A DNA stretch of 64,000 nt from Hydrocarboniphaga sp. (GTDB taxonomy: Bacteria; Pseudomonadota; Gammaproteobacteria; Nevskiales; Nevskiaceae), in NCBI RefSeq assembly GCF_028291725.1, contig NZ_JAQGNT010000027.1, positions 1 to 64,000 of the forward strand. The letters run 5' to 3'. Positions 2,287 through 20,707 of the stretch are shown here, one piece after another (the stretch's first letter is position 1; each line of letters opens with the position of its first letter). Made by a program: the position numbers and the translations under genes. The notes under the pieces are model-generated. The model was not told where the DNA came from and made no database searches. It worked only from the letters and a program-made list of their open reading frames with translations.

Positions 2287-5468
<3,182 letters not shown>

Positions 5469-5504
5469 CGCACCCCGGAGCGGGCTCTATCATTCGCGCC
5501 CTTC

Positions 5505-5579
5505 GGATAGTTAGCTCAGCGGTAGAGCATCGCCTTCACACGGCGGGGGTCACAGGTTCAATCCCTGTACTATCCACCA
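5505..5579 (+). tRNA. tRNA-Val(CAC)
   Basis: A complete cloverleaf of 75 nt including the encoded CCA: acceptor stem GGATAGT/ACTATCC, D stem GCTC/GAGC, anticodon loop TTCACAC with anticodon CAC reading GTG codons, and T stem ACAGG/CCTGT with loop TTCAATC. Its 3' end is the apparent integration site of the downstream island. Confidence 0.95.
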
Positions 5580-5638
5580 AACAAGTGTCCAAAGAAGTCC
5601 AAGGCTGCACATAACCCCGCGTAATTGCGGGGTTTTTT
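5566..5638. other. Putative island attachment site, left (att)
   Basis: The 3' end of tRNA-Val and the following hairpin reappear in degenerate form at 22550-22619. Shared blocks in the same order are TGTACTA, ACCAAA, GTCCA, GTCC and the hairpin loop region CCGCGTAATTGCGGG followed by TTTTTTGTG. This is what a tRNA-targeting integrase leaves at the two ends of an inserted element. The exact crossover cannot be fixed because the copies differ. Confidence 0.6.
5613..5638 (+). terminator. Rho-independent terminator after tRNA-Val
   Basis: CCCCGC-GTAATT-GCGGGG followed by six T residues, 34 nt after the tRNA. Its stem and loop are nearly identical to the hairpin at 22596-22619. Confidence 0.9.
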
Positions 5639-5682
5639 GTGTCCTTCGATCCGAAGGTGTCCGAGCTGATCCATTGACTTCC

Positions 5683-5714
5683 GGGGGCAACTGGGGGCAA
5701 CTGTGGGGGCAAGT
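5683..5714. repeat. GGGGGCAACT tandem array, left end of island
   Basis: Three near-identical 10-bp units (GGGGGCAACT at 5683 and 5693, GGGGGCAAGT at 5705). Further GGGGGCAA words occur in both orientations at the start of the integrase gene. Two exact units recur at the other end of the island (22468, 22480). The position fits arm-type binding sites for the integrase; binding itself is inference. Confidence 0.7.
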
Positions 5715-5743
5715 CACCTCAACTCCAAAGCGGTTGCCCCCAA

Positions 5744-6949
5744 ATGCCCCTTACAGCGACGGCAATTCGTAACGTCAAACCGGCCGCAAAGGCACAACGG
5801 CTGTTCGACGGAGGGGGTCTTTACCTGGAAGTTGCCCCCAATGGGGGCAAGTGGTGGCGTCTGAAGTACCGTTTTGGGGGCAAGGAGAAGCGCATTTCCT
5901 TCGGAGTCTTCCCGGACGTGTCGCTCAGCGATGCGCGGGAAAAGCGCGACGAGGCCCGCAAGCTGCTCGGCAAGGGAATCGATCCCGGCGAGAGCCGGAA
6001 GGCGCTGAAGGCGGCGGTAGAGAAGGCCAGCGACAGCTTTGAGGTGATCGCCCGCGAGTGGTTCGCCAAGCACAAGCCAAATTGGGTCGAAAGCCATTCC
6101 TCAAAAGTGGAGGCACGGTTGGAGCGCGACCTGTTCCCCTGGCTTGGCATGCGTCCGATTGCTTCGATCACCGCTCCAGATGTTTTGGCCACACTGCGCC
6201 GAATCGAATTCCGTGGTGCCTTGGACACGGCGCACCGCGCCAAGCAGGACTGCGGCGCCGTCTTCCGCTACGCAGTCGCCACAGGTCGCGCCGAACGTGA
6301 TCCGACCGGTGACCTGCGCGGCGCCCTACCGCCAGCGAAGGGCGGGCACTTCGCGACAATCACTGACCCCAAGGCGATCGGTGAACTACTGCGCGCCACC
6401 GGCACATATTCAGGTGGCTTCGTGACCGGATGCGCGCTGCGGCTGGCACCGTTGGTCTTCGTTCGTCCTGGCGAGCTTAGGAATGCCGAGTGGTCCGAAG
6501 TCGACTCCGAGAAAGCCGAGTGGCGCATTCCCGGCGAGAAAATGAAGATGAGGGTGCCGCACATCGTCCCGCTCTCGGAGCAAGCGCTGGCTGTTCTGGC
6601 AGACCTCCGACCACTGACCGGCGAAGGCCGCTACCTGTTCCCCAGCGTGCGCACCGGTTCTCGGCCAATGTCTGAGAACACGGTTCTGGCCGCTCTGCGC
6701 CGTCTCGGATACTCGACCGAGCAGATGACTGGCCATGGATTCCGAGCGATGGCATCAACGCTGCTGAACGAGCAGGGCTGGAACAAGGACGCGATTGAGA
6801 GGCAGTTGGCGCATTCCGAGCGCAACCGGGTGAGAGCCTCATACAACTATGCCGAGCACCTGCCGGAGCGTCGAAGGATGATGCAGGCATGGGCGGACCA
6901 TCTTGATGCGCTCACTTTCACGCAAAAGGACCAGCCCCGCCGGGCCTGA
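5744..6949 (+). CDS. int: Tyrosine integrase, P4-like
   Basis: A 401-residue site-specific recombinase, the full length expected for P4-type island integrases. The N-terminal arm-binding DUF4102-like domain ('LTATAIRNVKPAAKAQRLFD', 'GLYLEV', 'RISFGVFPDVSLSDAR') is followed by a SAM-like core-binding domain and a catalytic domain. The catalytic set is complete: R241 ('RPGELRNAEW'), H331-x-x-R334 ('HGFRAM'), H357 ('QLAHSE') and Y367 ('SYNYAEHL'). It lies 165 bp past tRNA-Val, pointing inward, as usual for tRNA-inserted islands. A degenerate sister copy lies at 22716-23775. Its substrate is presumably the tRNA-Val 3' end. No clear ribosome-binding site precedes the ATG. Confidence 0.95.
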   Translation: MPLTATAIRNVKPAAKAQRLFDGGGLYLEVAPNGGKWWRLKYRFGGKEKRISFGVFPDVSLSDAREKRDEARKLLGKGIDPGESRKALKAAVEKASDSFEVIAREWFAKHKPNWVESHSSKVEARLERDLFPWLGMRPIASITAPDVLATLRRIEFRGALDTAHRAKQDCGAVFRYAVATGRAERDPTGDLRGALPPAKGGHFATITDPKAIGELLRATGTYSGGFVTGCALRLAPLVFVRPGELRNAEWSEVDSEKAEWRIPGEKMKMRVPHIVPLSEQALAVLADLRPLTGEGRYLFPSVRTGSRPMSENTVLAALRRLGYSTEQMTGHGFRAMASTLLNEQGWNKDAIERQLAHSERNRVRASYNYAEHLPERRRMMQAWADHLDALTFTQKDQPRRA

Positions 6950-7073
6950 TGTAGGACAATGAGACGCGGCGTCTTGGGTAAGGCGGTGGGGCACCTCCGA
7001 ACTCTCGCCATAGACCCACGTCAATTACTGAAACCGCCGCATTTCGTGTGCGCGATTTGGACAGCGGCAGACC

Positions 7074-9872
7074 ATGAATGCAGTAGAAATCGAGACCGCA
7101 ATATCGGAGTTGGCCCTTCAGCCGTTCGATGGGGCAGAGTTTCCCTACGCGTTCCTGGCTGCCTTCGGTAACAAGGACACCGCCCTTAAGCGCCTGCGTG
7201 CAGGCAACAATAATGCGTCGGATGTGTTCGGTGGAGTGCTCCAGCGCAGCAACATCCATCTTGCCGTGTGCGAACCCGATGCTGTCGGTGAAACGCTCAA
7301 GGCCCTGCGCGCCAGCCCGGCCACTACCAAGGGTAAGGCCAAGTTTATCCTCGCCACCGACGGGGAGACTCTGGAGGCTGAAGAACTAGCCAATGGCGAG
7401 ACAATCGCCTGCGCCTACTCGGACTTCTCCAATCATTTTGGTTTTTTCCTGCCGCTGGCAGGTATCTCCACTATCAAGGAGATCAAGGACAACCCGGTTG
7501 ATGTGCGCGCCACAGGGCGCCTGAACAAGCTGTATGTCGAGTTGCTGCGCGAGAACCCGAGCTGGGCCTCGGACGCGCGTCGCGCCGATATGAACCACTT
7601 CATGGCACGATTGATTTTCTGCTTTTTTGCCGAAGATACCGACATCTTCAACGGCGAGGGCCTGCTCACGCAGACCGTGGAGCAGATGAGCGAGCGCGAC
7701 GGCGCCAATACGCACGAGGTGCTGCAAACCGTCTTCCGCGCGATGAACATCAAGGTCGCCGATCGCCCCGATGCCGAGCCGCGTTTACCAAGCTGGGCCA
7801 ATGGCTTCCCGTATGTAAACGGCGGCCTGTTCAGCGGCAGCACCGAGGTGCCGCGCTTTACGCGCATGGCGCGCACTTATCTGAACCACGCCGGCAATCT
7901 GAACTGGAAGCAGATCAACCCGGACATCTTTGGCAGCATGATCCAGGCCGTGGCTGACGACGAAGAGCGCGGCGCGCTCGGCATGCACTACACCAGCGTG
8001 CCCAATATCCTCAAAGTGCTGAATCCGCTGTTTCTGGATGAGTTGCGCGCCGCTTTGAATGAGGCCGGCGATAACGATCGCAAATTGCTGAACCTGCGCA
8101 AGCGCATGGCGCGTATCCGCGTGTTCGATCCGGCCTGCGGGTCCGGCAATTTTCTGGTTATCGCGTATAAGCAGATGCGCGAAATCGAGGCGCAAATCAA
8201 TCGCCGACGCGGCGAATCGAGTCTGGGTAGTGAAATCCCGCTGACCAACTTTCGCGGCATCGAGCTGCGCGATTTTCCAGCGGAAATTGCTCGGCTTGCG
8301 CTAATCATTGCCGAGTTCCAGTGCGACGTGCTGTATCGCGGGCAGAAGGACGCGCTTGCGGAATTTCTGCCGCTGGATACGCAGAACTGGATCGTTTGCG
8401 GTAATGCGCTGAGGCTGGATTGGTTGAGTATTTGCCCGCCTACGGGTGCGGGCGTGAAGCTAATTGCTGATGACTTGTTCGGCACACCGCTCAACCAGAC
8501 AGAAATCAGCTTCGAGAATGAGGGCGGCGAAACGTATGTCTGCGGAAATCCGCCATACAAAGGTGGAACGGAGCAGAACGCGATACAAAAATCGGATATG
8601 AAAGCTCTGTTCGAATCTGAAACCGATAGTTGGAAGTCGCTCGATTACGTTTCCGGTTGGTTTATAAAGTTTGCACGGTACGCAATAGCAACAAGGGCTG
8701 CTTGCGCCTTCGTCAGCACTAATTCGATTACCCAAGGCGAACAAGTGGCACGCCTGTGGCCGCTTATTCTTGGTGGTGGGCTACGAATTAGGTTCGCATA
8801 CACCTCTTTCAAATGGGCGAACCTTGCTGCGCATAATGCCGGTGTCACGGTCGTTATTATCGGACTTTCTACAAATTCGGCAAGCAAGGTGTCGTTGTAC
8901 GAGGAAGCCGGCGATGACGGTGTTAAGCGGCGTGATGTTGATAATATCAATGCCTATCTTGTTCCCACTCGTGACATCTTAGTCGAAACCTCAACAGACG
9001 CTATTTGTCCGCTTGGAAAAATGACTAAGGGAAATCAGCCGGCAGATGGTGGAAATCTTCTCTTTGGCGTGAATGAAGCACGGTTGATGAAGCAACAAGA
9101 TGGGCGGGTTTTGCCATTTATTCGTCCATTTATTGGAGCTGCTGACACAATCCAGGGTGGTCTGAGGTATTGCTTGTGGATTAATGATAAACAAGCTGAT
9201 TTCGCACTGAGTATTCCGGCAATCAAGGAACGCACAGATCGAGTTGTTGAGATGCGCTCGGCGAGTGGAAAGGAGTTCACGAGGAAATGCGCAGAAACTC
9301 CGTATGCGTTTCAGCAGGTTCGTCAGACTGGCGAGGAGGCTGTTGTTCTGGTTCCACGCCATTCCTCGGCCGCCAGACCATATTTGCCGGTCAGTCTCTA
9401 TCCAAAAGGTGCAATCGTTGCAGATGGAGCATTCGCAATGTTTGATGCTCCTCGTTGGGCTTTTTCGCTTCTTGTTTCACGCATACACCTAATTTGGATC
9501 GCGACTGTCTGTGGGCGAATTAAAACCGATTTTCGCTACTCCAGCACCCTCGGCTGGAACACCTTCCCGGTGCCGCTGCTCACCGAGCAGAATAAGGCCG
9601 ATCTGACTGCCTGCTCCGAAAACATCCTGCTGGCCCGGGAAGCGCATTTCCCCGCCACCATCGCCGACCTCTACGACCCGGACGTTATGCCGGACAACCT
9701 GCGCCACGCTCACGAGCGCAACGACGAAGTGCTGGAACGCATCTACATCGGCCGCCGCTTCAAGAACGACACCGAGCGGCTGGAGAAACTGTTCGAGCTG
9801 TATACGAAGATGACGGCAGCAGCGGCCAAGGCCGTGGTCGCCACGAAGGCGCCCAGGGGAAAGAAAGCATGA
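7074..9872 (+). CDS. MmeI-like N6-adenine DNA methyltransferase
   Basis: A 932-residue class I SAM-dependent DNA methyltransferase with the layout of MmeI-type enzymes: N-terminal region, helical spacer ('ARLIFCFFAEDTDIF', 'HYTSVPNILKVLNPLF'), methyltransferase core with SAM motif 'DPACGSGNF' at 352-360 and catalytic NPPY at 492-495, a target-recognition region, and a C-terminal helical part ('GWNTFPVP', 'LYDPDVMPDNLRHAH'). The D...EXK nuclease of true MmeI enzymes is not visible in the first 120 residues, so cleavage would have to come from partners. It is the first gene of a four-gene operon and its stop overlaps the nuclease gene by 4 bp. The segment 8500-9520, covering the recognition region, is clearly more AT-rich than the flanks, suggesting domain exchange. 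A modification role within a restriction-type defence system is the best inference. Confidence 0.85.
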   Translation: MNAVEIETAISELALQPFDGAEFPYAFLAAFGNKDTALKRLRAGNNNASDVFGGVLQRSNIHLAVCEPDAVGETLKALRASPATTKGKAKFILATDGETLEAEELANGETIACAYSDFSNHFGFFLPLAGISTIKEIKDNPVDVRATGRLNKLYVELLRENPSWASDARRADMNHFMARLIFCFFAEDTDIFNGEGLLTQTVEQMSERDGANTHEVLQTVFRAMNIKVADRPDAEPRLPSWANGFPYVNGGLFSGSTEVPRFTRMARTYLNHAGNLNWKQINPDIFGSMIQAVADDEERGALGMHYTSVPNILKVLNPLFLDELRAALNEAGDNDRKLLNLRKRMARIRVFDPACGSGNFLVIAYKQMREIEAQINRRRGESSLGSEIPLTNFRGIELRDFPAEIARLALIIAEFQCDVLYRGQKDALAEFLPLDTQNWIVCGNALRLDWLSICPPTGAGVKLIADDLFGTPLNQTEISFENEGGETYVCGNPPYKGGTEQNAIQKSDMKALFESETDSWKSLDYVSGWFIKFARYAIATRAACAFVSTNSITQGEQVARLWPLILGGGLRIRFAYTSFKWANLAAHNAGVTVVIIGLSTNSASKVSLYEEAGDDGVKRRDVDNINAYLVPTRDILVETSTDAICPLGKMTKGNQPADGGNLLFGVNEARLMKQQDGRVLPFIRPFIGAADTIQGGLRYCLWINDKQADFALSIPAIKERTDRVVEMRSASGKEFTRKCAETPYAFQQVRQTGEEAVVLVPRHSSAARPYLPVSLYPKGAIVADGAFAMFDAPRWAFSLLVSRIHLIWIATVCGRIKTDFRYSSTLGWNTFPVPLLTEQNKADLTACSENILLAREAHFPATIADLYDPDVMPDNLRHAHERNDEVLERIYIGRRFKNDTERLEKLFELYTKMTAAAAKAVVATKAPRGKKA

Positions 9873-10930
9873 GCGATAGCCCCATTAGTATGACTAAACC
9901 CCCCGAAGGCTATGCCGACTGGCTGGCCGATCTCAAAGGCCGTATCCACGCCGCGCAGCAGCGCGCCACGCTGGCGGTCAACCGCGAATTGGTGCTGCTG
10001 TACTGGCAGATCGGGCGAGACATTCTGGCGCGGCAGGCCGAACAGGGCTGGGGTGCCAAGGTGATCGAGCGGCTGGCGCACGACCTGCGCACAGCTTTTC
10101 CCGCTATGAAGGGTTTTTCTCCGCGTAATCTCAAGTACATGCGCGCTTTTGCCGAAGCGTGGCCCGATGCAGACTTTGTGCAACAGGCTGCTGCACAATT
10201 GCCCTGGGGACACAATCTGGTTCTGCTGGACAGGCTCAACTCGCCGGAAGAGCGTCGCTGGTACTTAGCCAAAGCCATCGAGCACAACTGGTCTCGAAAC
10301 GTACTAAACATCCAAATCGAAACCGGCCTGCTGGCGCGCAGCGGCGTGGCGGTCACCAACTTCGAGGCTCGCCTGCCAAAGCCGCAATCCGACTTGGCTC
10401 GTGAGTCGCTCAAAGACCCCTACCGCTTCGACTTCCTCGGCCTGACCGATGAGGCGCAGGAGCGCGCGATAGAGAACGCTCTGGTGAAACACGTCACCGA
10501 GTTCTTGCTGGAACTTGGCGCGGGCTTCGCATTCGTCGGTCGCCAGGTGCTGCTGAACGTTGGCGGTGACGAGTTTTTCATCGACCTGTTGTTCTATCAC
10601 CTCAAGCTGCGCTGTTATGTAGTGATCGAACTCAAGGGCGGCAAGTTCAAGCCCGAGCACCTGGGCCAACTCGGTTTTTATCTAACTGCGGTGGATCGCC
10701 AAGTCAAAAGCGAGCAAGACAACCCAACCATCGGCCTCTTGCTCTGCAAGAGCAAGAACAAGGTGGTGGCTGAATATGCCTTGGGCGACAAGACCCAGCC
10801 CATGGGTATTGCCGAATATAAGTTGCTCGAATCCCTCCCTGCCGAGCTGCAGACCAGCCTGCCCAGCATCGAACAGATCGAGCGCGAACTCACGGGCGGC
10901 GGCATATCCACTGAAGACGACTCGGAATGA
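9869..10930 (+). CDS. YhcG/DUF1016-family PD-(D/E)XK nuclease
   Basis: 353 residues: an N-terminal DUF1016 helical domain ('RIHAAQQRATLAVNRELVLL', 'YWQIGRDI', 'FSPRNLKYMRAFAEAWP') and a C-terminal PD-(D/E)XK fold. The nuclease triad is visible as D239 ('FFIDLLFYH'), E254 and K256 ('VVIELKGGKF'), followed by a helix with 'LGQLGFYLTAVD'. It starts in an ATGA overlap with the methyltransferase and ends in another with the helicase, so the three are translationally coupled. The family is common next to R-M genes and is thought to cut or process DNA. Here it is the likely restriction component, since the methyltransferase lacks its own nuclease. Confidence 0.9.
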   Translation: MSDSPISMTKPPEGYADWLADLKGRIHAAQQRATLAVNRELVLLYWQIGRDILARQAEQGWGAKVIERLAHDLRTAFPAMKGFSPRNLKYMRAFAEAWPDADFVQQAAAQLPWGHNLVLLDRLNSPEERRWYLAKAIEHNWSRNVLNIQIETGLLARSGVAVTNFEARLPKPQSDLARESLKDPYRFDFLGLTDEAQERAIENALVKHVTEFLLELGAGFAFVGRQVLLNVGGDEFFIDLLFYHLKLRCYVVIELKGGKFKPEHLGQLGFYLTAVDRQVKSEQDNPTIGLLLCKSKNKVVAEYALGDKTQPMGIAEYKLLESLPAELQTSLPSIEQIERELTGGGISTEDDSE

Positions 10931-13029
10931 TCAACCCAACCAATACATATACCGTGCCGTCGGTGTCCATCACCACGGCGCGCACGGGCGCTTCAAACAA
11001 GGCCAACGCGCTGGGTATGCGGGCCATGCAGGAGCGCGTCTACGCCAAGCGGGGCGAGCAGTATCTGCTGATCAAGTCGCCGCCGGCCTCGGGGAAGTCC
11101 CGCGCGCTGATGTTCGTTGCGCTGGACAAGCTCAATAATCAGGGTTTGCAGCAGGCCATCGTCGTCGTGCCGGAGCGCTCGATTGGCGGCAGCTTTTCCG
11201 ATGAGCCCTTGAGCCAGTACGGCTTCTACTGGGATTGGCAGGTCGCGCCGCAGTGGAACCTGTGCAATGCCCCCGGCGCGGACGAGCCCCGCGTGGCCAA
11301 GTCCAAGGTGGACGCGGTGCGCAAGTTCCTGGCGAGCACCGACAAGGTGCTAGTTTGCACCCATGCCACCTTCCGGTTCGCAGTGGACGAACTGGGCATC
11401 GAGGCGTTCGACAAACGTCTCATCGCCATCGACGAGTTCCACCACGTCTCCAGCAATCCGGACAACCGGCTGGGCAGCCAGCTGGGTGCGTTGATCACCC
11501 GTGACAAGGTGCATCTGGTCGCGATGACCGGCTCCTACTTTCGCGGCGACAGCGAGGCAGTGCTGGCGCCTGCGGACGAAGCTCGATTCGAGACCGTCAC
11601 CTACACCTACTACGAACAACTCAACGGCTATCGCTGGCTCAAGTCGCTGGACATCGGCTATTTCTTCTACACCGGCCGTTACGTGGATGCCGTCGCCAAG
11701 GTCTTGGACCCGGCGCTGAAGACCATCGTTCACATTCCCAACGTCAATTCGCGCGAGAGCCTGCAAGACAAAGAGCGCGAAGTGAACGAGATCATGAGTG
11801 CGCTGGGCGAATGGAAGGGCGTCGATCCGTCCACCGGCTTTCACCATGTGCAAGCCAAGGATGGTCGTATTTTGAAGGTGGCTGATCTTGTCGATGACAG
11901 CGATGCTGCCAAGCGTTCTCGCGTCTTGTCAGCATTGAAGGACTCGGCGCAAAAGGAAAATCGAGACCATGTCGATGTTGTCATCGCACTGGGTATGGCG
12001 AAAGAAGGCTTTGATTGGATTTGGTGCGAGCATGCGTTGACTATCGGCTATCGCAGCAGCCTGACCGAGATTGTGCAGATCATTGGCCGTGCCACCCGTG
12101 ATGCGAACGGGAAGGAACGAGCGCGCTTCACCAATCTGATCGCCGAGCCCGCGGCAGAACAAACTGCCGTTGCCGAGGCAGTGAACGACATGCTCAAGGC
12201 CATCTCTGCCAGCTTGCTGATGGAGCAAGTGCTGGCGCCGCGCTATGAGTTCACGCCGAAGGACGCCGGGGAGAAGCCAGGCTTTAACTACGGACCCGAC
12301 GGTTATCAAACAGGTCGCACTAATGTTGGCGTGAACGAGTCCACGGGCCAGTATCACGTCGAGATCAACGGATTGGCTACACCGGAAACGCCCGAAGCCA
12401 CTCGCATCTGCAAAGAAGACTTGAACGAGGTGGTTACGAGTTTCTTGCAGGACAAGACCGTAGTGGAGCGCGGCCTGTTCGACAAGGAAAACACGCTACC
12501 CGAAGAGCTGACCCAGTTGCGTATGGGTAAGATCGTGCGCGAGCGATACCCGGACCTGAGCGAAGTCGATCAGGAGGCCATCCGACAGCACGCCATCGCG
12601 GCCATGAACATCACCCAACAGGCGAAGCTGGCCCTAGCTCAGGCGGATGCAGCGGGATCGTCACAAGGTAGCACCGCTTTGCTGGATGGCGTGCGCAAGT
12701 TCGTCAACGTGCGCGACCTGGACATCGACCTGATCGACCGCATCAACCCCTTTGATGCGGCCTACGCCGTGTTGGCAAAAGCGATGGACGAAAAATCGCT
12801 GCGGCAGGTGCAGGCCAGCATTGCCGCCAAGAAGGTAAGCATTCCCGAGGACGAAGCCCGCGAACTTGCGAAACGCGCCTTGCAGTTCAAAAACGAGCGA
12901 GGTCGCCTGCCGGACATCAACTCAGCCGATGCTTGGGAAAAGAAAATGGCCGAGGGCGTTGCCGCGCTGGTGCGCTACCGCGCTCAGGCCAAGGCGACCC
13001 AGGCGCAAGGGAAGTCTAGCGATGGCTGA
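10927..13029 (+). CDS. SF2 DEAD/DEAH-type helicase/translocase
   Basis: 700 residues. The ATPase core shows Walker A 'PPASGKS' (52-58), Walker B as 'DEFHH' (169-173) and motif VI 'QIIGRATR' (384-391), with an intervening 'AMTGSYFRGD' matching motif III. The C-terminal 280 residues have no motif I recognise and may mediate contacts. The DEFH box is shared with some R-M and defence helicases. Overlaps of 4 bp upstream and 8 bp downstream place it in the middle of the methyltransferase-nuclease-helicase-GIY-YIG operon, so DNA translocation or unwinding for the nucleases is the likely role. Cytoplasmic. Confidence 0.88.
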   Translation: MINPTNTYTVPSVSITTARTGASNKANALGMRAMQERVYAKRGEQYLLIKSPPASGKSRALMFVALDKLNNQGLQQAIVVVPERSIGGSFSDEPLSQYGFYWDWQVAPQWNLCNAPGADEPRVAKSKVDAVRKFLASTDKVLVCTHATFRFAVDELGIEAFDKRLIAIDEFHHVSSNPDNRLGSQLGALITRDKVHLVAMTGSYFRGDSEAVLAPADEARFETVTYTYYEQLNGYRWLKSLDIGYFFYTGRYVDAVAKVLDPALKTIVHIPNVNSRESLQDKEREVNEIMSALGEWKGVDPSTGFHHVQAKDGRILKVADLVDDSDAAKRSRVLSALKDSAQKENRDHVDVVIALGMAKEGFDWIWCEHALTIGYRSSLTEIVQIIGRATRDANGKERARFTNLIAEPAAEQTAVAEAVNDMLKAISASLLMEQVLAPRYEFTPKDAGEKPGFNYGPDGYQTGRTNVGVNESTGQYHVEINGLATPETPEATRICKEDLNEVVTSFLQDKTVVERGLFDKENTLPEELTQLRMGKIVRERYPDLSEVDQEAIRQHAIAAMNITQQAKLALAQADAAGSSQGSTALLDGVRKFVNVRDLDIDLIDRINPFDAAYAVLAKAMDEKSLRQVQASIAAKKVSIPEDEARELAKRALQFKNERGRLPDINSADAWEKKMAEGVAALVRYRAQAKATQAQGKSSDG

Positions 13030-14206
13030 CATGGACGATGACGCCCTACTAGATGCTCTGGGTGTAGAAATCGCGCCGCTGAAGGCCGGCAGCCGAACTC
13101 CGCGTGAGGAACGTATCATCGCCGGCTTCGAGGACATCTTGCGCTTCCACCAGGCCCACGGTCGCGCGCCGCTGCATGGAGAGGATCACGATATCTTCGA
13201 GCGCTTATATGCCGTGCGCCTGGACCAGCTGCGCAGGCTGCCGGAAGCGCAAACCTTGTTGGCCGAGCTGGATAGTCCGGGACTTTTGGCGGGAGCTATG
13301 GCGGTCGTGGTCGATGCGGATGGCTTGGATGAAGATGCACTCCTGGCCGAGTTGGGCATTGGCGACGAACCCGCGGCCGAAGACGACATCACCGTGCTTC
13401 GCCATGTGCGGTCTCACGCCGAGAAACGTGTGGCAGAGGAAGTTGCCGATCGCATGCCCTGCGCGGACTTCGACAAGTTTGAACCCTTATTCGAGCAGGT
13501 AGAACGCGACCTTAAGTCCGGTGCTCGCAAAACGCTGCGGTTCGGGCGGGATACCAGCATCGCCAACGGGAACTATTTCATCGTAGGTGGGCAACTGGCT
13601 TATGTGGCGGAGACCGGCGAGGCCATCAAGGCACCGAACGGCGAGAGCGATGCTCGCTTGCGCGTCATCTATGCCAATGGCACGGAAAGCAATTTGCTTC
13701 GCCGCTCCTTACAGCGAGCGCTATATAAGGACGATACCGGCCGGCGTCTGACTGATCCAGACTTGGGGCCGCTGTTCGGCGATGAGTCAGAGCCTGACGA
13801 CATTGAAAGCGGAACGATCTACGTGCTGCGTAGCCTGTCCAGCCATCCATTCGTTATCGAGCACCGCGAACTGATCCACAAAATCGGCGTGACGGGCGGA
13901 AAGGTTGAAGCGCGGATCGCAGCGGCGGAAAAGGATGCCACTTACCTTCTTGCTGATGTTGAAGTAATTGCTACCTACACGCTTCACAATCTGAATCGCG
14001 TCAGGCTGGAAAATATTTTCCACCGTTTATTTGGCGGTGCTCAGCTCGATTTGACGATTGAAGATCGCTTTGGAAATCCGGTGAAGCCAAGGGAATGGTT
14101 TCTGGTGCCGCTGCATGTGATTGACGAAGCGGTGCAGCACATTCGTGACGGGTCAATTACCGATCTGATCTATGACCCGAAAGCAGCGCGGTTGATCGGT
14201 ATCTGA
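13022..14206 (+). CDS. GIY-YIG (T5orf172/MUG113-like) nuclease-domain protein
   Basis: 394 residues from the ATG at 13022, chosen because ATGGCTGA overlaps the helicase stop by 8 bp. The first 250 residues are acidic helical sequence without a family I know ('DDDALLDALGVE'; 'EDALLAELGIGDEPAAEDD' is a partial internal repeat of it). The C-terminal part is a GIY-YIG domain: 'GTIYVLRS' at 264-271, 'KIGVT' at 287-291, an Arg about 10 residues on, and the metal-binding Glu in 'LENIFHRLF'. It is the last gene of the operon and would supply a second nuclease chemistry beside the PD-(D/E)XK protein. Base composition drops toward the 3' end, as in the methyltransferase recognition region. Confidence 0.82.
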   Translation: MADMDDDALLDALGVEIAPLKAGSRTPREERIIAGFEDILRFHQAHGRAPLHGEDHDIFERLYAVRLDQLRRLPEAQTLLAELDSPGLLAGAMAVVVDADGLDEDALLAELGIGDEPAAEDDITVLRHVRSHAEKRVAEEVADRMPCADFDKFEPLFEQVERDLKSGARKTLRFGRDTSIANGNYFIVGGQLAYVAETGEAIKAPNGESDARLRVIYANGTESNLLRRSLQRALYKDDTGRRLTDPDLGPLFGDESEPDDIESGTIYVLRSLSSHPFVIEHRELIHKIGVTGGKVEARIAAAEKDATYLLADVEVIATYTLHNLNRVRLENIFHRLFGGAQLDLTIEDRFGNPVKPREWFLVPLHVIDEAVQHIRDGSITDLIYDPKAARLIGI

Positions 14207-14292
14207 AATAGTCAGAACGGTGTACTTTTTTATAAAAATCTGATCCGTGCGCCGTCCTACGTGGTCGCCTTGGTGGACCTCTGAGGTCGGAG

Positions 14293-15390
14293 TTATAGAA
14301 CGAATCGTGCGTCTTCATGCAACAAAAGAAAGGCACGCATCTCTTGATAGACGACCCTCTCGGTCTCAACCATGAGTTTTTGCTTCTCCGGCAGGCTCGT
14401 CGTTTGGTCGAACTGCCTGAGCAATCGCTTCAAATTCGCGCGGTAATTCGAGTATCGCTCAATCTCTCGGCCGGGCTGAAGCCCTTCCTCGAACGCCCTG
14501 GTTGCCATCATGACGATAGCTAGCCAGACGACGACGACCTCGATCAAATGGCCGACTGCTTGCCCTCTGGCGAGGGTGGCGGCCACCCATAGATGCAGGG
14601 CAAACATAACAGCGATACAAGCGAGAGCTATAGCACGCAATACGCGAAATTGACCGGCTGCCGATTTTGGTAGCAACTTCGCGTCGTTGCGCAGCATTGT
14701 ATTTGCGTATTGAATCTGGTGTTCGAGCCGAAGCAGACGATATGCGGCTAAAAAGTCCTCGGCCGCAGACCCGATTTCCGTAGGTATCGAGGAGCTGTCG
14801 GCGATCAGCATCTCGAATTCGCTGTCGTCACTATCATCGAGAACCGCCTTAAGTTTCGCGGCCTCGTGCCCCTCGTAGCGTAGGCCAAAGGCTGACAGCC
14901 ATGTTCGGCGATTGGCCAACAGATCCTGCATCCGCTGCCCATCTTGTAAAGCGACCAGAACTTCCGGTAACCGGAAGACCATGATCTGAAAGTGCAGCTG
15001 CCTTAAGCGCTCTGTCATCAAACGATGACAAAACCAATCGTGTTTGCTGGATTCGCTGGCAATTCCTAATGCACCGATAAGAACACTGACGATGCCGAGA
15101 AAGGCGGAAATCCATCCGATAGCCCGCGGCCAGTCGCCAGCATCTTCTAGCAGCGGGCTTGAAGATGCGCCCAGCAGCGCAACTACCCCCATTGCGATAG
15201 CGGCGATGCCCCAGCGTTGACGCTTTTTCTTCAGCCGATTCGCAGGTCGATCGTGCCTGCCGAAGGTCTCTCTCAACTCTGGAAAATCAAGTAGCGGGAA
15301 GAGATTCGGAAAAGTCCTGCTTGCGAGTTCCCGGTCGTCCTGAGAAAGCAATAGATCGTCGTTAAATTTTGGTTCTTCGAAGGAGGCCAT
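14293..15390 (-). CDS. Four-helix membrane protein, candidate effector partner of ThsB-like gene
   Basis: 365 residues with two predicted transmembrane hairpins: about 60-80 and 89-110 ('GIAAIAMGVVALLG', 'AIGWISAFLGIVSVLIGALG'), then about 247-270 and 278-298 ('ALACIAVMFALHLWVAATL', 'LIEVVVVWLAIVMMA'). Each hairpin is followed by an Arg/Glu-rich amphipathic helix ('HRLMTERLRQLHFQ'; 'YSNYRANLKRLLRQFD'), which resembles SLATT-type two-helix effector domains in duplicate. No Macro, SIR2 or SLOG domain is visible, unlike known Thoeris ThsA proteins. It starts 16 nt after the ThsB-like gene, in the same operon. Membrane disruption after a TIR-made signal is an inference from this pairing. I know no named family for it. 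Confidence 0.75.
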   Translation of the reverse strand: MASFEEPKFNDDLLLSQDDRELASRTFPNLFPLLDFPELRETFGRHDRPANRLKKKRQRWGIAAIAMGVVALLGASSSPLLEDAGDWPRAIGWISAFLGIVSVLIGALGIASESSKHDWFCHRLMTERLRQLHFQIMVFRLPEVLVALQDGQRMQDLLANRRTWLSAFGLRYEGHEAAKLKAVLDDSDDSEFEMLIADSSSIPTEIGSAAEDFLAAYRLLRLEHQIQYANTMLRNDAKLLPKSAAGQFRVLRAIALACIAVMFALHLWVAATLARGQAVGHLIEVVVVWLAIVMMATRAFEEGLQPGREIERYSNYRANLKRLLRQFDQTTSLPEKQKLMVETERVVYQEMRAFLLLHEDARFVL

Positions 15391-15406
15391 AGCGATGGGG
15401 GCAGCT

Positions 15407-15796
15407 TTATCGCCCGCCAGCGATCAATGTCTTCAAATTTTCCCAAGTCCAGTTATAAAGCTTGTCCGATGAGCTCGCGGACGTGGGTTTGGTGCAAGTC
15501 TTCGTGGAATAGGCCTGCAAAAGGAAGTAGGGTTTGTTCTTTTCCTTGGCTATCGACAATTCCTCAGCGACACCTTTTGCCGTATGAGTAGATTCGCCGC
15601 ACAGGACAATAACAACGTCGATATTGTCCATGCGGCGCCTGACCTTTTCCTTCCAGTCACCGGTGAGATGGTCCTTAACGGACGAATCTTTGAACTCGAA
15701 CGGGCTATCAGAGTGCTTAGCTTGACCGGCGAGCATAATCTTGGCTCCCTCGTCGTGGTCATAGTCAAAACTGATAAAAGCGCGCTTCATAGCCAT
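15407..15796 (-). CDS. ThsB-like TIR (MTH538/DUF1863) protein
   Basis: 129 residues spanning one MTH538-type TIR-like domain (the Thoeris ThsB family): 'KRAFISFDYDHDEG' at the first strand, 'DSSVKDHLTGDWKEKVRRRM', 'VVIVLCGESTHTAKGV', the acidic pair E78-E79 that may serve catalysis, and a C-terminal 'LYNWTWENL'. In Thoeris such proteins sense phage and make a NAD-derived cyclic signal for a partner effector. A good ribosome-binding site (GGGGAG) precedes the ATG at 15796; a second in-frame ATG lies 2 codons on. It is first in a two-gene operon with the four-helix membrane protein and converges on the restriction-like operon. Confidence 0.88.
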   Translation of the reverse strand: MAMKRAFISFDYDHDEGAKIMLAGQAKHSDSPFEFKDSSVKDHLTGDWKEKVRRRMDNIDVVIVLCGESTHTAKGVAEELSIAKEKNKPYFLLQAYSTKTCTKPTSASSSDKLYNWTWENLKTLIAGGR

Positions 15797-15931
15797 ACTT
15801 GCTCCCCGAGATCATCGGTGGTCGATTATACGCCGCTATGAGGTGCGAGCTGGATCAGGCTCGCCCCCAAATACTCTCGGCTTTTCGCGGCAATCGTCGC
15901 TGTTCTGGTGCCGACGGCGGCCGATCCAATT

Positions 15932-17125
15932 TCAACGATCGCGGTCGCGTTCAGAACCCGATTCTCGGCCACGGTTTTTGTTCACGGCGGTGGCTATCTG
16001 TTGACCACGGGTGGGCGTCGGCTGGGTTTCATTTGCCAGCACTCGAAGCAACAGCGAGGCACGTTCTAGCGTCTGTCGCCGTGGCTCGTTGTCGGCAGCT
16101 TTGGCCTCGATCAGAAGCGCATCGGACTGGTCCCGAAAGCCTTGCGAAACTTGGTGGGCGTTGCGGACTCGGGCCTCTTCCCACGTTTTTTCCGGTGCCG
16201 CCGTCCGTCCTTCCGCTGCGACCCGTCGGACCAACTGATCATCCGTCCGCATCCGCAGGCTGGCGGCCTTCGCCTTCAAGGCCGCGGCCTTTTTATGGTC
16301 GCCGGCCGACGCTGCCACGGTCGATTCGGACAATAGGCGTTGCTTGCGCGCCTCCAGTCCGCGCTTCACCTGTTCGCGGGTCCAGTGCGCCGGCTTCGGC
16401 GCTCCGGTGCGAGCCACTCCCCGCGAACGTGTCGGCGACTTACCCCGTTCCCAGGCTCGTGTCGCATCGACATCAATGCCATGGTCGCGGGCGACCTTGG
16501 CGAAGTGCTCCCGCCATGCCTGCACCTCTGCGACGCTCGTATGCAGCCGCTTACCCTGAGCGTTCATAAGGCTCAGGACGACGTGGACGTGCGGCTGTTT
16601 CGTGTCGTCGTGACGGACGAACAGATACTCGTGGCCATCCTTTCCGAACCGCTCGGATAAGAACTGGCGGGTCGCTTTGGTCAGTGCTTCCGGCTTTGCC
16701 TTCGCGCCAGCATCAAGGATGAAATGCGCCGTGACGCGACGCATCCGCAGCTGGGCAGCGCCCGGCTCCTTCATTCCGGCTCCGGCCTGTTCTGCCCACG
16801 ACCGGACACGCTTGCGCAACTGATTGATGTCATCGACCGGGGCACCCATCTCGTCCTCGGGCGACAGCTTCCCGTGCCGGCGGATGTACTCGATGTGCCC
16901 CAGAATCTTGCTGCCACCATGACCGAACTTTGTGATCTTCAGAATGGCCTGTGGGCGGTGCTGCGCAATCCGAAGGCTACGCGCCAGAGCCCCGCCGGTC
17001 CCGCCCGCTCGACGATAGGGCGAGCCCGAACTGCCCGGCCCGAGTAGGCGGCCGGCCTTGGCTTTGCTCCCATGCGGCTGCTCATCGAGCAGGCCCGGCT
17101 CGTCGCGTTGGTCAGTTCCGGCCAT
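15932..17125 (-). CDS. Relaxase (MobA/VirD2-like)
   Basis: 397 residues from the ATG at 17125, which overlaps the mobC stop by 14 bp; the frame is open further upstream but those codons lie inside mobC. Relaxase features: 'ITKFGHGGSKILGHIEYI' with a candidate catalytic Tyr80, then the metal-binding histidines H172, H179 and H181 in 'RHDDTKQPHVHVVLSL'. The C-terminal half is charged and helical. It would nick the transfer strand at an oriT and stay covalently attached. With MobC but no coupling protein or mating-pore genes, the island would be mobilisable rather than self-transmissible. Confidence 0.87.
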   Translation of the reverse strand: MAGTDQRDEPGLLDEQPHGSKAKAGRLLGPGSSGSPYRRAGGTGGALARSLRIAQHRPQAILKITKFGHGGSKILGHIEYIRRHGKLSPEDEMGAPVDDINQLRKRVRSWAEQAGAGMKEPGAAQLRMRRVTAHFILDAGAKAKPEALTKATRQFLSERFGKDGHEYLFVRHDDTKQPHVHVVLSLMNAQGKRLHTSVAEVQAWREHFAKVARDHGIDVDATRAWERGKSPTRSRGVARTGAPKPAHWTREQVKRGLEARKQRLLSESTVAASAGDHKKAAALKAKAASLRMRTDDQLVRRVAAEGRTAAPEKTWEEARVRNAHQVSQGFRDQSDALLIEAKAADNEPRRQTLERASLLLRVLANETQPTPTRGQQIATAVNKNRGRESGSERDRDR

Positions 17126-17687
17126 GTTCGGGCACCGTGCGTGCTCGTGCAGTGGCGACCAGACGACGCCAAGTAAATTCGCTCTCGCTGCACGCCGACG
17201 CCAGCTGATCGACGACTTCTGCGAGCGCGTGACCGGGTGCGTCGCCGCCATTGAGCTGGCGCGCAACCTGGTTGAGGTTCACGCCGATCGACCGCATCTG
17301 CCGCGCGAGTTCCATCACCGCCATCTGCTCGCGGTCGAGTAAATCGACACCGCCAGTGACGAGTTCGCGCAAAGCTTTTCGGGCCAGCCGGCAGCGGTTG
17401 ATCCCGGTCTTCACGGCAAGCTGCTGCAGGCCGTACAGTTCCTCTTCGGTGAGCCGAAGACGAAGCTTCTCGCTGCGTTTCTGGCGCCGCGCGAGCGGCG
17501 CTGGATTCGTCTTTCTGCTGTCTCGGTGCGCAGCACCGGCGGCCAGCGCAGCGTCCGAGGGCGCAGGCCCTCCTGCAAAATGTCCCCCATTTTGCGAATC
17601 GGCGCCCTCACTCTTTTCCTCGCTTTTGACTCTCCTTTCCGCTTCACCTGCGTTCGGCATCTGCTGATCTCGCGCTAGCATCTTCAT
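17112..17687 (-). CDS. mobC: MobC-like relaxosome accessory protein
   Basis: About 191 residues. The C-terminal 110 carry the MobC signature: 'RSEKLRLRLTEEELYGLQQL', 'SIGVNLNQVARQLN' near residue 145. The N-terminal 60 are low-complexity and charged. The start is uncertain: ATGs at 17687, 17681 and 17660 are possible. MobC proteins help the relaxase melt or bind oriT. It is co-transcribed with, and overlaps, the relaxase gene, and is divergent from a small plus-strand gene; the intervening 32 bp and adjacent DNA are the natural place to look for oriT. Confidence 0.82.
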   Translation of the reverse strand: MKMLARDQQMPNAGEAERRVKSEEKSEGADSQNGGHFAGGPAPSDAALAAGAAHRDSRKTNPAPLARRQKRSEKLRLRLTEEELYGLQQLAVKTGINRCRLARKALRELVTGGVDLLDREQMAVMELARQMRSIGVNLNQVARQLNGGDAPGHALAEVVDQLASACSESEFTWRRLVATARARTVPEHGRN

Positions 17688-17719
17688 CACCTGCACCCAC
17701 AGCACAAGGATCGTGTGAA

Positions 17720-17896
17720 ATGACGAAGTCCATCTTTCTCGACAAGCCCAAGACCACCGCATTCCATTGCCGCATCAGTAACGAGCTTCACGGGCGTGTG
17801 CGCGCCATTCAAGCGCACCTCAAACAGCACAGCGACGACGCAGTCTTCCCACTGGATCAAATCGTCGAAGAGGCGCAGCAGCGGGCAACCCGATAG
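17720..17896 (+). CDS. Small 58-residue protein of mobilisation modules
   Basis: A short gene that starts at an ATG with AAGGA 9 nt upstream. The product opens 'MTKSIFLDKPKTTAFHCRIS' and continues with 'LHGRVRAIQAHLKQH' and 'AVFPLDQIVEEAQQRA'. The pattern (short strand, two helices, a C-terminal amphipathic helix) resembles small ribbon-helix-helix-like proteins I have seen beside mob or integrative-element genes. It is divergent from mobC and could regulate it or bind oriT; that is inference. No family name is offered. Confidence 0.6.
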   Translation: MTKSIFLDKPKTTAFHCRISNELHGRVRAIQAHLKQHSDDAVFPLDQIVEEAQQRATR

Positions 17897-18148
17897 CCAT
17901 CCTGTGTTGATAGGCAGGACGCTGTAGTCGATCGAGCCGTCAGCGTTCACGTGCCATGGGACAGCCGGTCCGCCATCCTGCGAGCGAACTGCTGTCAGCA
18001 ACACCGCTGGTATGCCGAGACGTTCGGCAGACGCTTCGATGTAACGCGCTTCTGGCGATGACCGGTCGTATCGAGCGTGAGCCGCCGCTGTGTGTGTGAA
18101 GGGCAATAGCGCAATCAGTACGCCGAGGCAGGAGCGAGCGCGGCTCAT
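17897..18148 (-). pseudogene. Lytic transglycosylase-like fragment (conjugation type)
   Basis: From the ATG at 18148 the frame gives a signal peptide ('MSRARSCLGVLIALLPFTHT' then AAAHA) and the first 60 residues of an SLT-type muramidase of conjugation systems ('EASAERLGIPAVLLTAVRS', 'NADGSIDYSVLPINTGWL'). The position of the catalytic Glu (usually VEGG or VESG) reads 'SQDGG', and after 'TGWLSG' the frame passes into antisense of the small gene and stops at 17687 with no family resemblance. It is therefore truncated, probably by a deletion that joined it to the mob region, and is likely inactive. It hints that the island once had mating-pair genes. Confidence 0.6.
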
Positions 18149-18581
18149 GGTCGGGAACGTCGTAGGAAATAAGTCGTGTGTCCACGTTGCACTGCTCTTC
18201 ATGGCTCTCTCGCAGATCTCAAGAGCCACGATCCAGCGCGTTCTCAGCGCCCTTCGTCAATGGCGAAGCGAGGACGGAACTGTCTATGCGAGGGAGTGAA
18301 CTGCAATCCGGGATTACGGCATCGCACTGTCGTTAGACCGGAATGCAACTGCCATTGAAAAACGACGCTGTTCTGTCGAAGCCGTGTTGAGAGCAAGCAA
18401 CGACGCAACGAAATCGAAAACCTCGCAGTGCGCGAATTGGCCCGTGTCTGGAATGCGTCCGGAAGCGTTACGGACGCAGATAGCCTTCAGCATCGGCGCG
18501 ATCGTCGGTCATCGCCGCCCGGCAATCGAAAACTCAATGTGCACACACTGCTGCAATCGGCGCCAATCCGCCCCACTCGAC
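18149..18581. other. Gap with faint upstream remains of the Mrr gene
   Basis: No intact gene. The plus strand shortly before 18582 is in frame with the Mrr remnant ('FSIGAIVGHRRPAIE', 'RRQSAPLD') and may be what is left of the membrane-anchored N-terminus found in many Mrr homologues. Nothing else is recognised. Confidence 0.35.
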
Positions 18582-19075
18582 ATGACCTGGCAGCAGTTCG
18601 AATCATTGGTCGGCGAGCACTTCCGCCAGCAAGGATTCGAGGTGCGTCTGACTGGTCAGAATGTCTCCGATGGCGGCGTCGATATCGAACTGCGCTGGGG
18701 TATCGAGTTCTGCCTGGTGTAATGCAAGCAGTGGCGCGCGATCCGCGTCGGCGTCGCAGTGGTACGCGAGCTTTATGGCGCCATGGCGGTCCAGGGAGCA
18801 GCGAGTGCGATCGTGGTGAGCGCCGGCTAGTTCACGGCCGACGCCAAAGAATTCGTTCAAGGGCGAAATATCCGGCTACTCGATGGCGCGCTGTTGAAGG
18901 CCGGCATGACAACCAAATCGCGAATTAGCGAGCGAGCGCCCGACTTTTTCACAATCGACTCCGTCCTGCCTCGCGTGTGGTGGATCAATGGCACTACGAA
19001 CCGCAAAGCAAAGGACGCAACGCCGGCCGCCAGTTCTGGGGCTGCACCTCGTATCAGAAAGGCAAAACGATGGCG
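18582..19075 (+). pseudogene. mrr: Mrr-type restriction endonuclease with two nonsense codons
   Basis: The frame from ATG 18582 gives an Mrr catalytic domain ('MTWQQFESLVGEHFRQQGFE', 'SDGGVDIEL'), then TAA at 18720-18722 exactly where the catalytic Q-x-K glutamine belongs (next residues 'CKQWRA'), continues 'VGVAVVRELYGAMAVQGAAS', meets TAG at 18828-18830 inside 'SAG*FTADAKEF', and ends 'GRNIRLLDGALL'. Beyond that, pieces of a topoisomerase-type zinc ribbon are spread over two frames ('CLACGGSMALRTAK', then 'GRNAGRQFWGCTSY'), implying a frameshift. Both stops are single C-to-T changes from Gln codons (CAA, CAG), if the second site was Gln. An intact version would be a modification-dependent restriction enzyme. 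Confidence 0.85.
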
Positions 19076-19147
19076 CCGATCTAGACTACCCCGTGGCGCC
19101 CCGGATGGTCTTGGGTGCGGGCGGATGCTTAGGGTGGATGTTCACTG

Positions 19148-20041
19148 CTAGCGCTTCCCCTTAAAGCGGATCGCCCACGATTCCCGTAGTTCTTCATCTT
19201 CGGCTGCCTCGTCGACTTCATCTTCATCGAACGAAAGTAGGGTCAGCCGGTATCCATTGGCCTGCACGAGCACCTGCTCGTAGAGGGACGGAAGACGGGT
19301 GCCGATCGTCGTGCTGAGCCACGTGGACCCGTCAACCGTTTCACAGTCCGACGGCCGGCCTAGCGGTGGATTCAACCGCGCGGTGATGGCCGTACGCGGA
19401 ATGGCTTCGCCTGATCGAACATCAATAAATGGAAAATCTCGCTGTCGATAGATGCGCAGCACCTTTCCCAAATGGGAGACGATCGCCGCACACCGCTCGC
19501 CGCGTAGCTCAACATAGCGACGCGCAGTCGCCTCCTTACTCATTTGATAGCGACCGGCAAGGTACAGGATGTGTTCGATATCGACGCCGGCCTTTTTCTT
19601 CAGGTCTCTGGAGATGGCAACCGCAGGCAGAAGCAGTAGCACCGAAAACCGGTTGGCCTGAACCTCGATATCTGCCAATCGATCAACTTGGCCCGTGATT
19701 GTTTTCCTCATGTCGCCGGTGGAACAGCGAAATCCATCGTTTGCCGGTGGCTGGTGCCACGTACACAAAAAATGCCCCAGTTCGTGCCCGACGGTGAATC
19801 GTCGCCGCTCGAGGCTGCTTCCTTCTTTAACGAGAATAGCGCCGCTGGAACGCTCCGCATCGGTGACCAAGCCACCTTCGAAACCGTCGGCTTCCAAGCC
19901 GCGGATATCCGCGATGTCGAGTGCAAGCGCGATGTCCTCTATCGGTACCGGCGTCGGAATTTCCGACATCTGCCTGAAAATCTCATCGGCGATTTTTTCA
20001 AGCGAGCCACAATCGGCGAGTTCCATCCGAGAGAGGATCAC
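19148..20041 (-). CDS. ImmA/IrrE-family metallopeptidase
   Basis: 297 residues with the zinc-protease motif HELGH at 86-90 ('FTVGHELGHFLCTWH') and a downstream Glu in 'DIEVQANRFS', the layout of ImmA/IrrE (COG2856) peptidases that cleave or inactivate a partner repressor. The C-terminal 150 residues are a long extension ending in an acidic stretch ('LLSFDEDEVDEAAEDEELRE'). The GTG start overlaps the stop of the XRE gene (GTGA); ATG at 20026 is an alternative. Paired with the upstream XRE regulator, it probably forms a derepression switch like ImmR/ImmA. Target genes are unknown; the divergent DUF2188-TIR operon is the obvious candidate. Confidence 0.88.
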   Translation of the reverse strand: MILSRMELADCGSLEKIADEIFRQMSEIPTPVPIEDIALALDIADIRGLEADGFEGGLVTDAERSSGAILVKEGSSLERRRFTVGHELGHFLCTWHQPPANDGFRCSTGDMRKTITGQVDRLADIEVQANRFSVLLLLPAVAISRDLKKKAGVDIEHILYLAGRYQMSKEATARRYVELRGERCAAIVSHLGKVLRIYRQRDFPFIDVRSGEAIPRTAITARLNPPLGRPSDCETVDGSTWLSTTIGTRLPSLYEQVLVQANGYRLTLLSFDEDEVDEAAEDEELRESWAIRFKGKR

Positions 20042-20355
20042 TTGTCCGACTTCTTCAGTGATTTCATGACGGCTTGAATCGTCTCTCGATCACGCTCTGA
20101 CAGCCCTTTCAGATCCCGGAACATCACAAGCAATTCTGGCGAATCTGTCTCCAATGGTTCCTCACCGACAAGGATCGAAACTGTCGTTTCAAAGTGGCTG
20201 GCCAGCCGGGTCAACAGATCAAGTGTTGGATTCCTGGCCTTCCCCGTTTCGATGTCCCAGATATGCGCCTTCGAGCCGCCTACTGCGTCAGCCACCTCCT
20301 GTAATGTTTCTCCCTTTTTTAGCCGCAGCTGCTTCAGGCGGGCGCCCAGGGCCAT
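20038..20355 (-). CDS. XRE-family helix-turn-helix repressor
   Basis: 105 residues. The first 60 are a Cro/C1 HTH ('LKQLRLKKGETLQEVADAVG', 'SKAHIWDIETGKARNPTLDL'); the rest is a short tail that could be the recognition site for the neighbouring peptidase ('LSERDRETIQAVMKSLKK'). It is translationally coupled to the ImmA/IrrE gene. A perfect minus-strand TATAAT (complement at 20392-20397) lies about 40 bp upstream of the start, inside an inverted repeat, which suggests autoregulation and possibly joint control of the divergent DUF2188-TIR pair. Confidence 0.9.
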   Translation of the reverse strand: MALGARLKQLRLKKGETLQEVADAVGGSKAHIWDIETGKARNPTLDLLTRLASHFETTVSILVGEEPLETDSPELLVMFRDLKGLSERDRETIQAVMKSLKKSDK

Positions 20356-20385
20356 ATAAGACTCTCCAGTTTGTTCGATATAGTG

Positions 20386-20411
20386 GTACAGATTATACTA
20401 ACAGGCTGTAC
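20386..20411. promoter_or_regulatory. Inverted repeat over divergent promoter (likely operator)
   Basis: GTACAG-N14-CTGTAC brackets a perfect TATAAT for the XRE gene on the minus strand. A related ACTGTAC word lies at about 20434-20440 nearer the plus-strand genes. The placement fits repressor binding by the XRE protein; no strong -35 box is visible. Confidence 0.6.
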
Positions 20412-20479
20412 TTGAGCCCTGACATCTGTTATAACTGTACTCGCTGTAAGTCCAGTTGAACAACCTTTAGGAGTTTCAA

Positions 20480-20692: not shown

Positions 20693-20707
20693 CGGGAGCA
20701 TCACGAC

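Follow-up and report, generated by a model that had tools for sequence, protein, structure and literature searches.

The closest described counterparts of the operon considered here are the DnmA-YeeB-YeeC clusters. In Bacillus subtilis, DnmA methylates adenine at N6 (N6-mA) within GACGAG, and the accessible text of two reports (PMC7261158, PMC9973331) describes dnmA, yeeB, and yeeC as conserved neighbors. According to the same text, Morgan and colleagues (2009) found MmeI relatives without the nuclease motif beside yeeB and yeeC, Makarova and colleagues listed relatives of YeeB and YeeC as putative antiphage genes, and a type I-like system was suggested earlier for the trio; one of the two reports (PMC9973331) also mentions uncharacterized proteins around dnmA as possible further members. 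We analyzed a 64,000-nucleotide stretch of DNA from Hydrocarboniphaga sp. (the window) in which four intact genes lie on the + strand at 7074-14206, with successive overlaps of 4, 4, and 8 bp (ORF analysis; ORF, open reading frame). We propose that this is probably a split restriction-modification (RM) operon of the DnmA-YeeB-YeeC type that carries one embedded gene for an accessory nuclease. The core families and their order, their tight coupling, the replacement of a nuclease motif where the partner genes are present, and a variable slot in the operon are apparent from the sequences. The genes, and one site within the first of them, are:

7074..9872, + strand: MmeI-like methyltransferase (932 amino acids, aa), in which the ExK of the N-terminal nuclease fold is replaced by NxH
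7221..7259, + strand: D50-x9-N60-I-H62 site, at the position where MmeI has D70-x9-E80-M-K82
9869..10930, + strand: YhcG/DUF1016 PD-(D/E)XK nuclease (353 aa), an optional occupant of the slot between methyltransferase and helicase
10927..13029, + strand: superfamily 2 (SF2) helicase/translocase of the YeeB type (700 aa)
13022..14206, + strand: GIY-YIG (T5orf172/MUG113) nuclease of the YeeC type (394 aa), with an ATG start at 13022

The longest ORF of the GIY-YIG gene begins at a TTG at 12866, and the ORFs of several relatives begin at the place that corresponds to 13022. A preliminary description of this DNA had reported gene overlaps of 4-8 bp and intact catalytic motifs, including D239-E254-K256 of YhcG. 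The overlaps are as it stated, and the motifs are not only intact but conserved across alignments of all four families.

Judged by gene order and domain architecture against the published descriptions, genes 1, 3, and 4 are of the DnmA(YeeA)-YeeB-YeeC type. The operon has an ExK-less MmeI-like methyltransferase, an SF2 helicase next downstream (an optional gene may intervene, as it does here), and a T5orf172/GIY-YIG protein after the helicase. PF20464 (MmeI_N) has matches in the B. subtilis control genome, and the B. subtilis proteins themselves were compared by description rather than by alignment. Also, a plasmid relative at 64.6% is annotated as YeeB. The four genes had at first been taken for one uncharacterized set; instead, the methyltransferase, helicase, and GIY-YIG protein are in print as DnmA-YeeB-YeeC (PMC7261158, PMC9973331), and YhcG is optional. 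The reservation that the operon might prove to be a named, characterized system thus applies to the three core genes, which are named and partly characterized, with YhcG outside that core. Other parts of the preliminary description hold: the neighborhood is recurrent (the methyltransferase was upstream in 20 of 20 phylum-sample loci that were fetched wide, and, of 140 non-redundant loci that extend 1.2 kb or more past the helicase, 137 have the GIY-YIG gene there, the three misses having an incomplete helicase), modification and cleavage appear to be split between proteins with a separate motor (three core families, with ExK replaced), and the set does not fit a textbook type I, II, or III scheme (no HsdS, no fused ExK, no Res).

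The methyltransferase has all five Pfam domains of MmeI, and its DPACGSGNF and NPPY motifs are conserved at 89% or more per column in a 110-row alignment of its relatives. The catalytic residues of MmeI are D70, E80, and K82 (D70..E80-M81-K82), according to the accessible text of PMC4833311. At the same spacing the window's protein shows D50..N60-I-H62, which are conserved at 88%, 80%, and 86% in the 110-row alignment, and the pattern D-x(6-16)-(E/Q)xK matches the first 110 residues of only 4 of 109 relatives. This column conservation means that the N-terminal domain is present and conserved and that ExK has been replaced, rather than the domain being absent. So, the earlier statement that the protein has no N-terminal D...EXK as in MmeI is right about ExK (NxH stands in its place), but the domain itself is there: MmeI_N matches residues 1-159 (2.4e-33). 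The fused PD-(D/E)XK motif that is expected of type IIL/IIG enzymes such as MmeI is absent from the window's methyltransferase, yet the best PADLOC match of this protein is a type IIG enzyme model (full length, 1.5e-275).

Does the replacement go together with the partner genes? We compared 29 loci, namely 28 of the 47 places found via the MmeI_N family and one locus from the helicase sample. D..ExK is kept in 18 of them, and none of the 18 shows the helicase or the GIY-YIG gene (17 have at least 3 kb visible downstream). Helicase and GIY-YIG genes are present in eight loci, and all seven of these with an alignable N-terminus are without ExK. (Among the remaining loci, two are without ExK but end with the contig and one has no methyltransferase match.) Within this sample, the fused nuclease motif and the separate partner genes are mutually exclusive. 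The lost ExK, together with the intact PD-(D/E)XK set of YhcG, might instead suggest that YhcG is the nuclease partner of the methyltransferase and that the helicase and the GIY-YIG protein are a separate module. We consider this most improbable, because loci that have the helicase and GIY-YIG genes but no YhcG have lost ExK just the same; the pattern of co-occurrence contradicts it.

The helicase has a DEAD domain (27.4 bits, Pfam cut-off 26), and nearly all positions of its motifs SPPASGKSRA, DEFHH, and QIIGRATRD are invariant among relatives. Its best fold matches (Foldseek) are SF2 helicases and HsdR. No hidden nuclease domain was found in it with Pfam or Foldseek, and a sequence search of the Protein Data Bank (PDB) was empty. 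The GIY-YIG protein has MUG113 and T5orf172 domains (Pfam), with G264, Y267, K287, G289, R298, and E330 invariant in 37 rows; a fold search with its model gave nothing below E 0.001, the top hits being weak EF-P/eIF5A-like matches. The genome carries a single copy of the helicase, which is present in 24 of 398 genomes of the sample of the window's phylum (its own genome counted). Among 50,697 phage records, three match the helicase and none covers more than 80% of it. Loci from Tumebacillus, Fictibacillus, and Cohnella are also among the helicase relatives, but in a sample of 348 genomes from the phylum of the Fictibacillus locus (L068), the full-length helicase was found only in that locus's own genome, along with two weak partial matches. 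The operon type is present but rare in that phylum, and our survey speaks mainly for proteobacteria.

The MmeI_TRD domain (target recognition domain, TRD) lies inside the methyltransferase, and it varies far more than its surroundings do. We compared eleven pairs of operons, selected because their slots differ or in order to place the window. In the four closest pairs, whose helicases are 94-98% identical, the N-termini of the methyltransferases are 89-96% identical and the C-termini 80-87%, while the TRDs are only 36-44% identical (39-44% in L124/L125, L061/L066, and L039/L047). Recognition specificity appears to have been exchanged, as in other restriction families. Such strong differences between operons with near-identical helicases suggest selection on specificity, and they bear on the possibility that the operon is a relic, with the methyltransferase a working orphan that acts on gene expression and with a helicase and GIY-YIG protein that have ceased to form a restriction machine, a view put forward for B. 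subtilis. There, in the accessible text of PMC9973331 and PMC7261158, single deletions had no phage phenotype and deletion of dnmA had no transformation phenotype. For the operon in the window this seems unlikely, not only because of the TRDs but also because the genes are coupled, their catalytic motifs are intact and conserved across the families, and the operon is part of an island that also encodes an integrase and a relaxase.

The gene order is variable at the junction between methyltransferase and helicase. Our survey began with 154 helicase loci, or 148 after six near-duplicates were dropped (four clusters, 98% helicase identity). The methyltransferase was visible upstream in 137 of these, and the remaining 11 each lie no more than 1 kb from the end of a sequence. 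(Counted among the 137 are three loci that did not come from helicase searches, namely the window, L172, and L173, as well as others that were located with MmeI_N.) This junction was longer than 110 bp in 70 of 137 loci, versus 2 of 128 for the junction between helicase and GIY-YIG gene; for the 128 shared loci, the discordant cases were 63 versus 2 (P = 1.2e-16, which is a guide because the loci are related). With gene ends estimated by homology and a limit of 150 bp, 67 of 137 and 2 of 130 junctions were occupied (discordant, 62 versus 2). In the phylum sample, the methyltransferase-helicase junction exceeded 110 bp in 10 of 22 judgeable loci (window included) and did not in 12, and only the window had an intact YhcG there. 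On a FastTree helicase tree, the slot changed between occupied and empty at least 28 times, and YhcG between present and absent at least 7 times. Close relatives can differ: L124 has RhuM in the slot and L125 has nothing, at 97.5% helicase identity.

The occupants that were recognized with Pfam or PADLOC are YhcG, RhuM (PDC-S05), SLFN_AlbA_2 with HATPase_c_4, GmrSD_N, PDDEXK_4 (PDC-S26), a protein with a weak PLD-like match, Fic with CcdA, YafQ, PIN, DUF559, CoiA-like, and FRG proteins. The extra DNA usually consists of other genes, many of which belong to defense-related or toxin-antitoxin families. At E 0.01, neither Pfam nor NCBIfam recognized six of the slot families (137, 205-213, 254-264, 272, 277, and 288 aa). 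Eleven of the 70 occupied slots lack any same-strand ORF, and in two the only such ORF is unmatched. Two loci (L160 and L162) have 7-kb insertions of about ten ORFs each, one of which holds a broken YhcG; these are perhaps mini defense islands inside the operon. As a separate observation, one family of 276-277 aa (L097 8115-8948, L150 276-1109, and L160 1748-2578) was matched by none of Pfam, NCBIfam, and PADLOC. Inspection by eye shows RDYRNYIHP at the end of the L097 member, which resembles the RNxxxH motif of HEPN ribonucleases.

YhcG has DUF1016_N and YhcG_C domains (Pfam) and matches the PADLOC model PDC-S02. In an alignment of 31 sequences, D239 is conserved in 31, E254 in 30, and K256 in 30; the best PDB match (E 0.94) was to an unrelated protein. 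The slot holds an intact YhcG in 6 of 134 operons (L032, L036, L039, L040, L044, and L104), a count that excludes the window and also L172 and L173, which were fetched through YhcG. It is broken in the slot of L105 (two frames) and L162. That the four genes are an obligate system, as was first supposed, would fit their coupling by overlaps and the occurrence of the same four genes on the Polaromonas plasmid pH1NP1. However, 128 of the 134 operons have no intact YhcG at the slot, and the slot can be empty or differently filled in close relatives (L032 has YhcG and L041 does not, at 92% helicase identity), so this seems very unlikely. Acidovorax p1-T1 has the three core genes and no YhcG.

YhcG itself is more widespread, being found in 66 of 369 genomes of the window's class. 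Among 30 YhcG loci that we fetched, three (the window included) have it between this methyltransferase and helicase. Eight of the non-slot loci adjoin hsdM, hsdS, or hsdR genes: ten ORFs from these eight loci, chosen by eye from 59 neighbors of other YhcG loci, all matched N6_Mtase, Methylase_S, or HSDR_N, and among the other 49 neighbors, integrases, transposases, and unrelated genes were noted by eye. In two type I copies (L174 and L175), YhcG is 79-80% identical to the window's, and a quick tree of the 31 sequences puts these two and the 10 slot copies in one clade (SH-aLRT 99). On the Aeromonas media plasmid pE31A, the order is hsdM-YhcG-hsdS-rhuM-hsdR, and YhcG is 84% identical to the window's. 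Locus L104 combines a YhcG at 83% identity to that of the window with a helicase at only 69%, which suggests that YhcG has been transferred between operons. The window's own genome has further YhcG matches on contigs 42, 79, and 118, two of them adjacent on contig 118.

Alternatively, YhcG and the other slot genes could be functionally unconnected to the core, with the slot a place where a well-expressed operon tolerates insertions. This is a possibility to take seriously, if not the one we favor: the occupants are mutually unrelated and frequently swapped, and some slots hold toxin-antitoxin genes, the 7-kb insertions, or a broken YhcG. It does not explain why the next junction of the same operon is so rarely occupied (2 of 128), why 8 of 10 slot copies of YhcG overlap both flanking genes by 4 bp (the flanking gene downstream in L040 being a further slot gene), or why the same YhcG lineage is found behind hsdM.

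We read the operon as a split RM system resembling type I that acts as a chassis for embedded accessory genes, and we propose the following scheme. The methyltransferase would recognize a short asymmetric site by its own TRD, and N6-adenine methylation would protect the host DNA. At an unmethylated site, the methyltransferase would recruit the helicase, which would translocate like the HsdR motor, and the GIY-YIG protein would do the cutting. So, the methyltransferase would stand in place of HsdM and HsdS, and the helicase and GIY-YIG protein in place of HsdR. YhcG would be an add-on effector whose gene immediately follows that of the methyltransferase, just as it follows hsdM (ahead of hsdS) in type I operons, and most likely a second line of attack, on DNA that the core missed or when the core is blocked.

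Several points weigh against this proposal. Our sample is biased toward close relatives, because its 80 genome loci were the best 80 of 559 relatives. Two of the eight slot copies of YhcG that were found without searching for YhcG are broken (L105 and L162), and slot versus other position requires only two changes on the YhcG tree, so few independent entries are demonstrated. Finally, the accessible text of PMC7261158 and PMC9973331 describes no restriction by the B. subtilis cluster, either of a transformed plasmid or of three phages, and the report that deletion of dnmA or yeeB makes Vibrio crassostreae more sensitive to some phages comes to us second-hand, as cited in PMC9973331.

The idea of embedding is known from the accessible text of other studies: PrrC is embedded in the PrrI system (PMC3710099), TgvAB in a type I operon of V. 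cholerae (PMC11411939), and DarTG2 between hsdS and hsdR in enteropathogenic E. coli (EPEC; PMC12255303), second systems lie inside type I loci of Pseudomonas islands (PMC12629846), and BREX has auxiliary nucleases (PMC12839542). Candidate genes embedded in multi-gene defense systems were also described by Payne and colleagues, as cited in PMC11411939 and PMC12255303. Thus embedding is already known elsewhere and the core is largely known; a specific, often refilled slot is the unexpected part. Our searches of open-licence PMC papers brought up no description of such a slot in DnmA-YeeB-YeeC operons, nor any report that names this operon as carrying embedded genes.

A more speculative extension, which we put forward tentatively, is that the methyltransferase-helicase junction is a cassette slot dedicated to the exchange of accessory effectors, often with translational coupling; these would come in part from the pool that also supplies the embedded genes of type I systems. 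In that case the core would act as a restriction machine and, at the same time, as a guarded chassis, with effectors like YhcG staying quiet while the core works and becoming active once a phage blocks it, as PrrC does in PrrI. If so, the unmatched slot families would be new defense genes. A fixed and frequently refilled slot is in any case a simple handle for finding new defense genes (there are six unmatched families), and this operon makes it testable whether embedded effectors guard their carrier system.

Other features of the region concern the setting of the operon. Two lie upstream:

5505..5579, + strand: tRNA-Val, the probable insertion site of the island
5744..6949, + strand: tyrosine integrase (Pfam), directly upstream of the operon

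The GC content drops from 0.64-0.66 ahead of the operon to 0.54-0.60 across it, and relaxase, MobC, and AlpA genes follow downstream. Because of these features, we infer that the operon is on a mobilizable genomic island. A second copy of the tRNA 3' end was not found in the window with up to three mismatches allowed, the search for a right attachment site gave nothing clear, just short repeats near 22.4-22.6 kb, and Rfam matched only the tRNA in 5400-24000. A consensus scan of 6700-14500 gave two promoter-like sites versus 2.8 in shuffles, none of them ahead of the operon, and 13 terminator-like sites versus 8.2 expected (sd, standard deviation, 3.3).

The stretch 15932-23775 encodes the relaxase, MobC, an IrrE-like peptidase, AlpA, and a second tyrosine integrase. 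The two integrase genes have a 300-bp stretch in common at 72% identity, so there are perhaps two elements in tandem at tRNA-Val. A ThsB-like TIR protein (15407-15796, - strand) adjoins a protein with a sub-threshold SLATT match (14293-15390, - strand), a possible second defense pair. The second TIR protein of the region (20708-21418, + strand) has a serine-rich N-terminus and then a TIR_2 domain (8.4e-15). Upstream, a single ORF at 4491-5468 (+ strand) has, by eye, a DUF559-like stretch followed by a TadA-like deaminase, which could be a fusion or an over-long start.

Among the seven proteins between 5744 and 15796, none matched Methylase_S, the mark of HsdS in type I systems. We also considered other named systems. 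As to type III, there is no Res subunit: ResIII scored 19.9 bits, below the cut-off of 22.5, and the helicase has no nuclease domain. In the same seven proteins, BREX was represented only by weak PglX matches to the methyltransferase, with no PglZ or BrxC beside it, and DISARM only by DrmMI matches to the methyltransferase, with no DrmA or DrmB. The PADLOC matches to MADS were likewise to the methyltransferase only.

Slot occupants match PADLOC candidate models (PDC-S02 for YhcG, PDC-S05 for RhuM, PDC-S26, and HEC-05/06), and we assume that the PDC names stem from the work of Payne and colleagues. The core is most like DnmA-YeeB-YeeC of B. subtilis and V. crassostreae, which in the accessible text of PMC9973331 and PMC7261158 has an MmeI-like N6-adenine methyltransferase without the nuclease motif, a helicase, and a T5orf172/GIY-YIG protein in the same order, and whose B. 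subtilis region is also thought to be horizontally acquired; that text describes no YhcG and no variable slot, and the B. subtilis cluster showed no restriction. MmeI and other type IIL enzymes share the five-domain architecture of the window's methyltransferase (it matches 5HR4 at 3e-127, from residue 89 on), but MmeI is one polypeptide with D70..E80-M81-K82, whereas the window has N and H for E and K, plus two partner genes behind. Finally, type I RM systems with embedded genes also combine an N6-adenine methyltransferase, a translocase, and embedded accessory genes, with the YhcG and RhuM families common to both. In contrast to these HsdS-containing systems, the window has no HsdS, its cutting would be done by a separate GIY-YIG protein, and its slot lies between methyltransferase and helicase.

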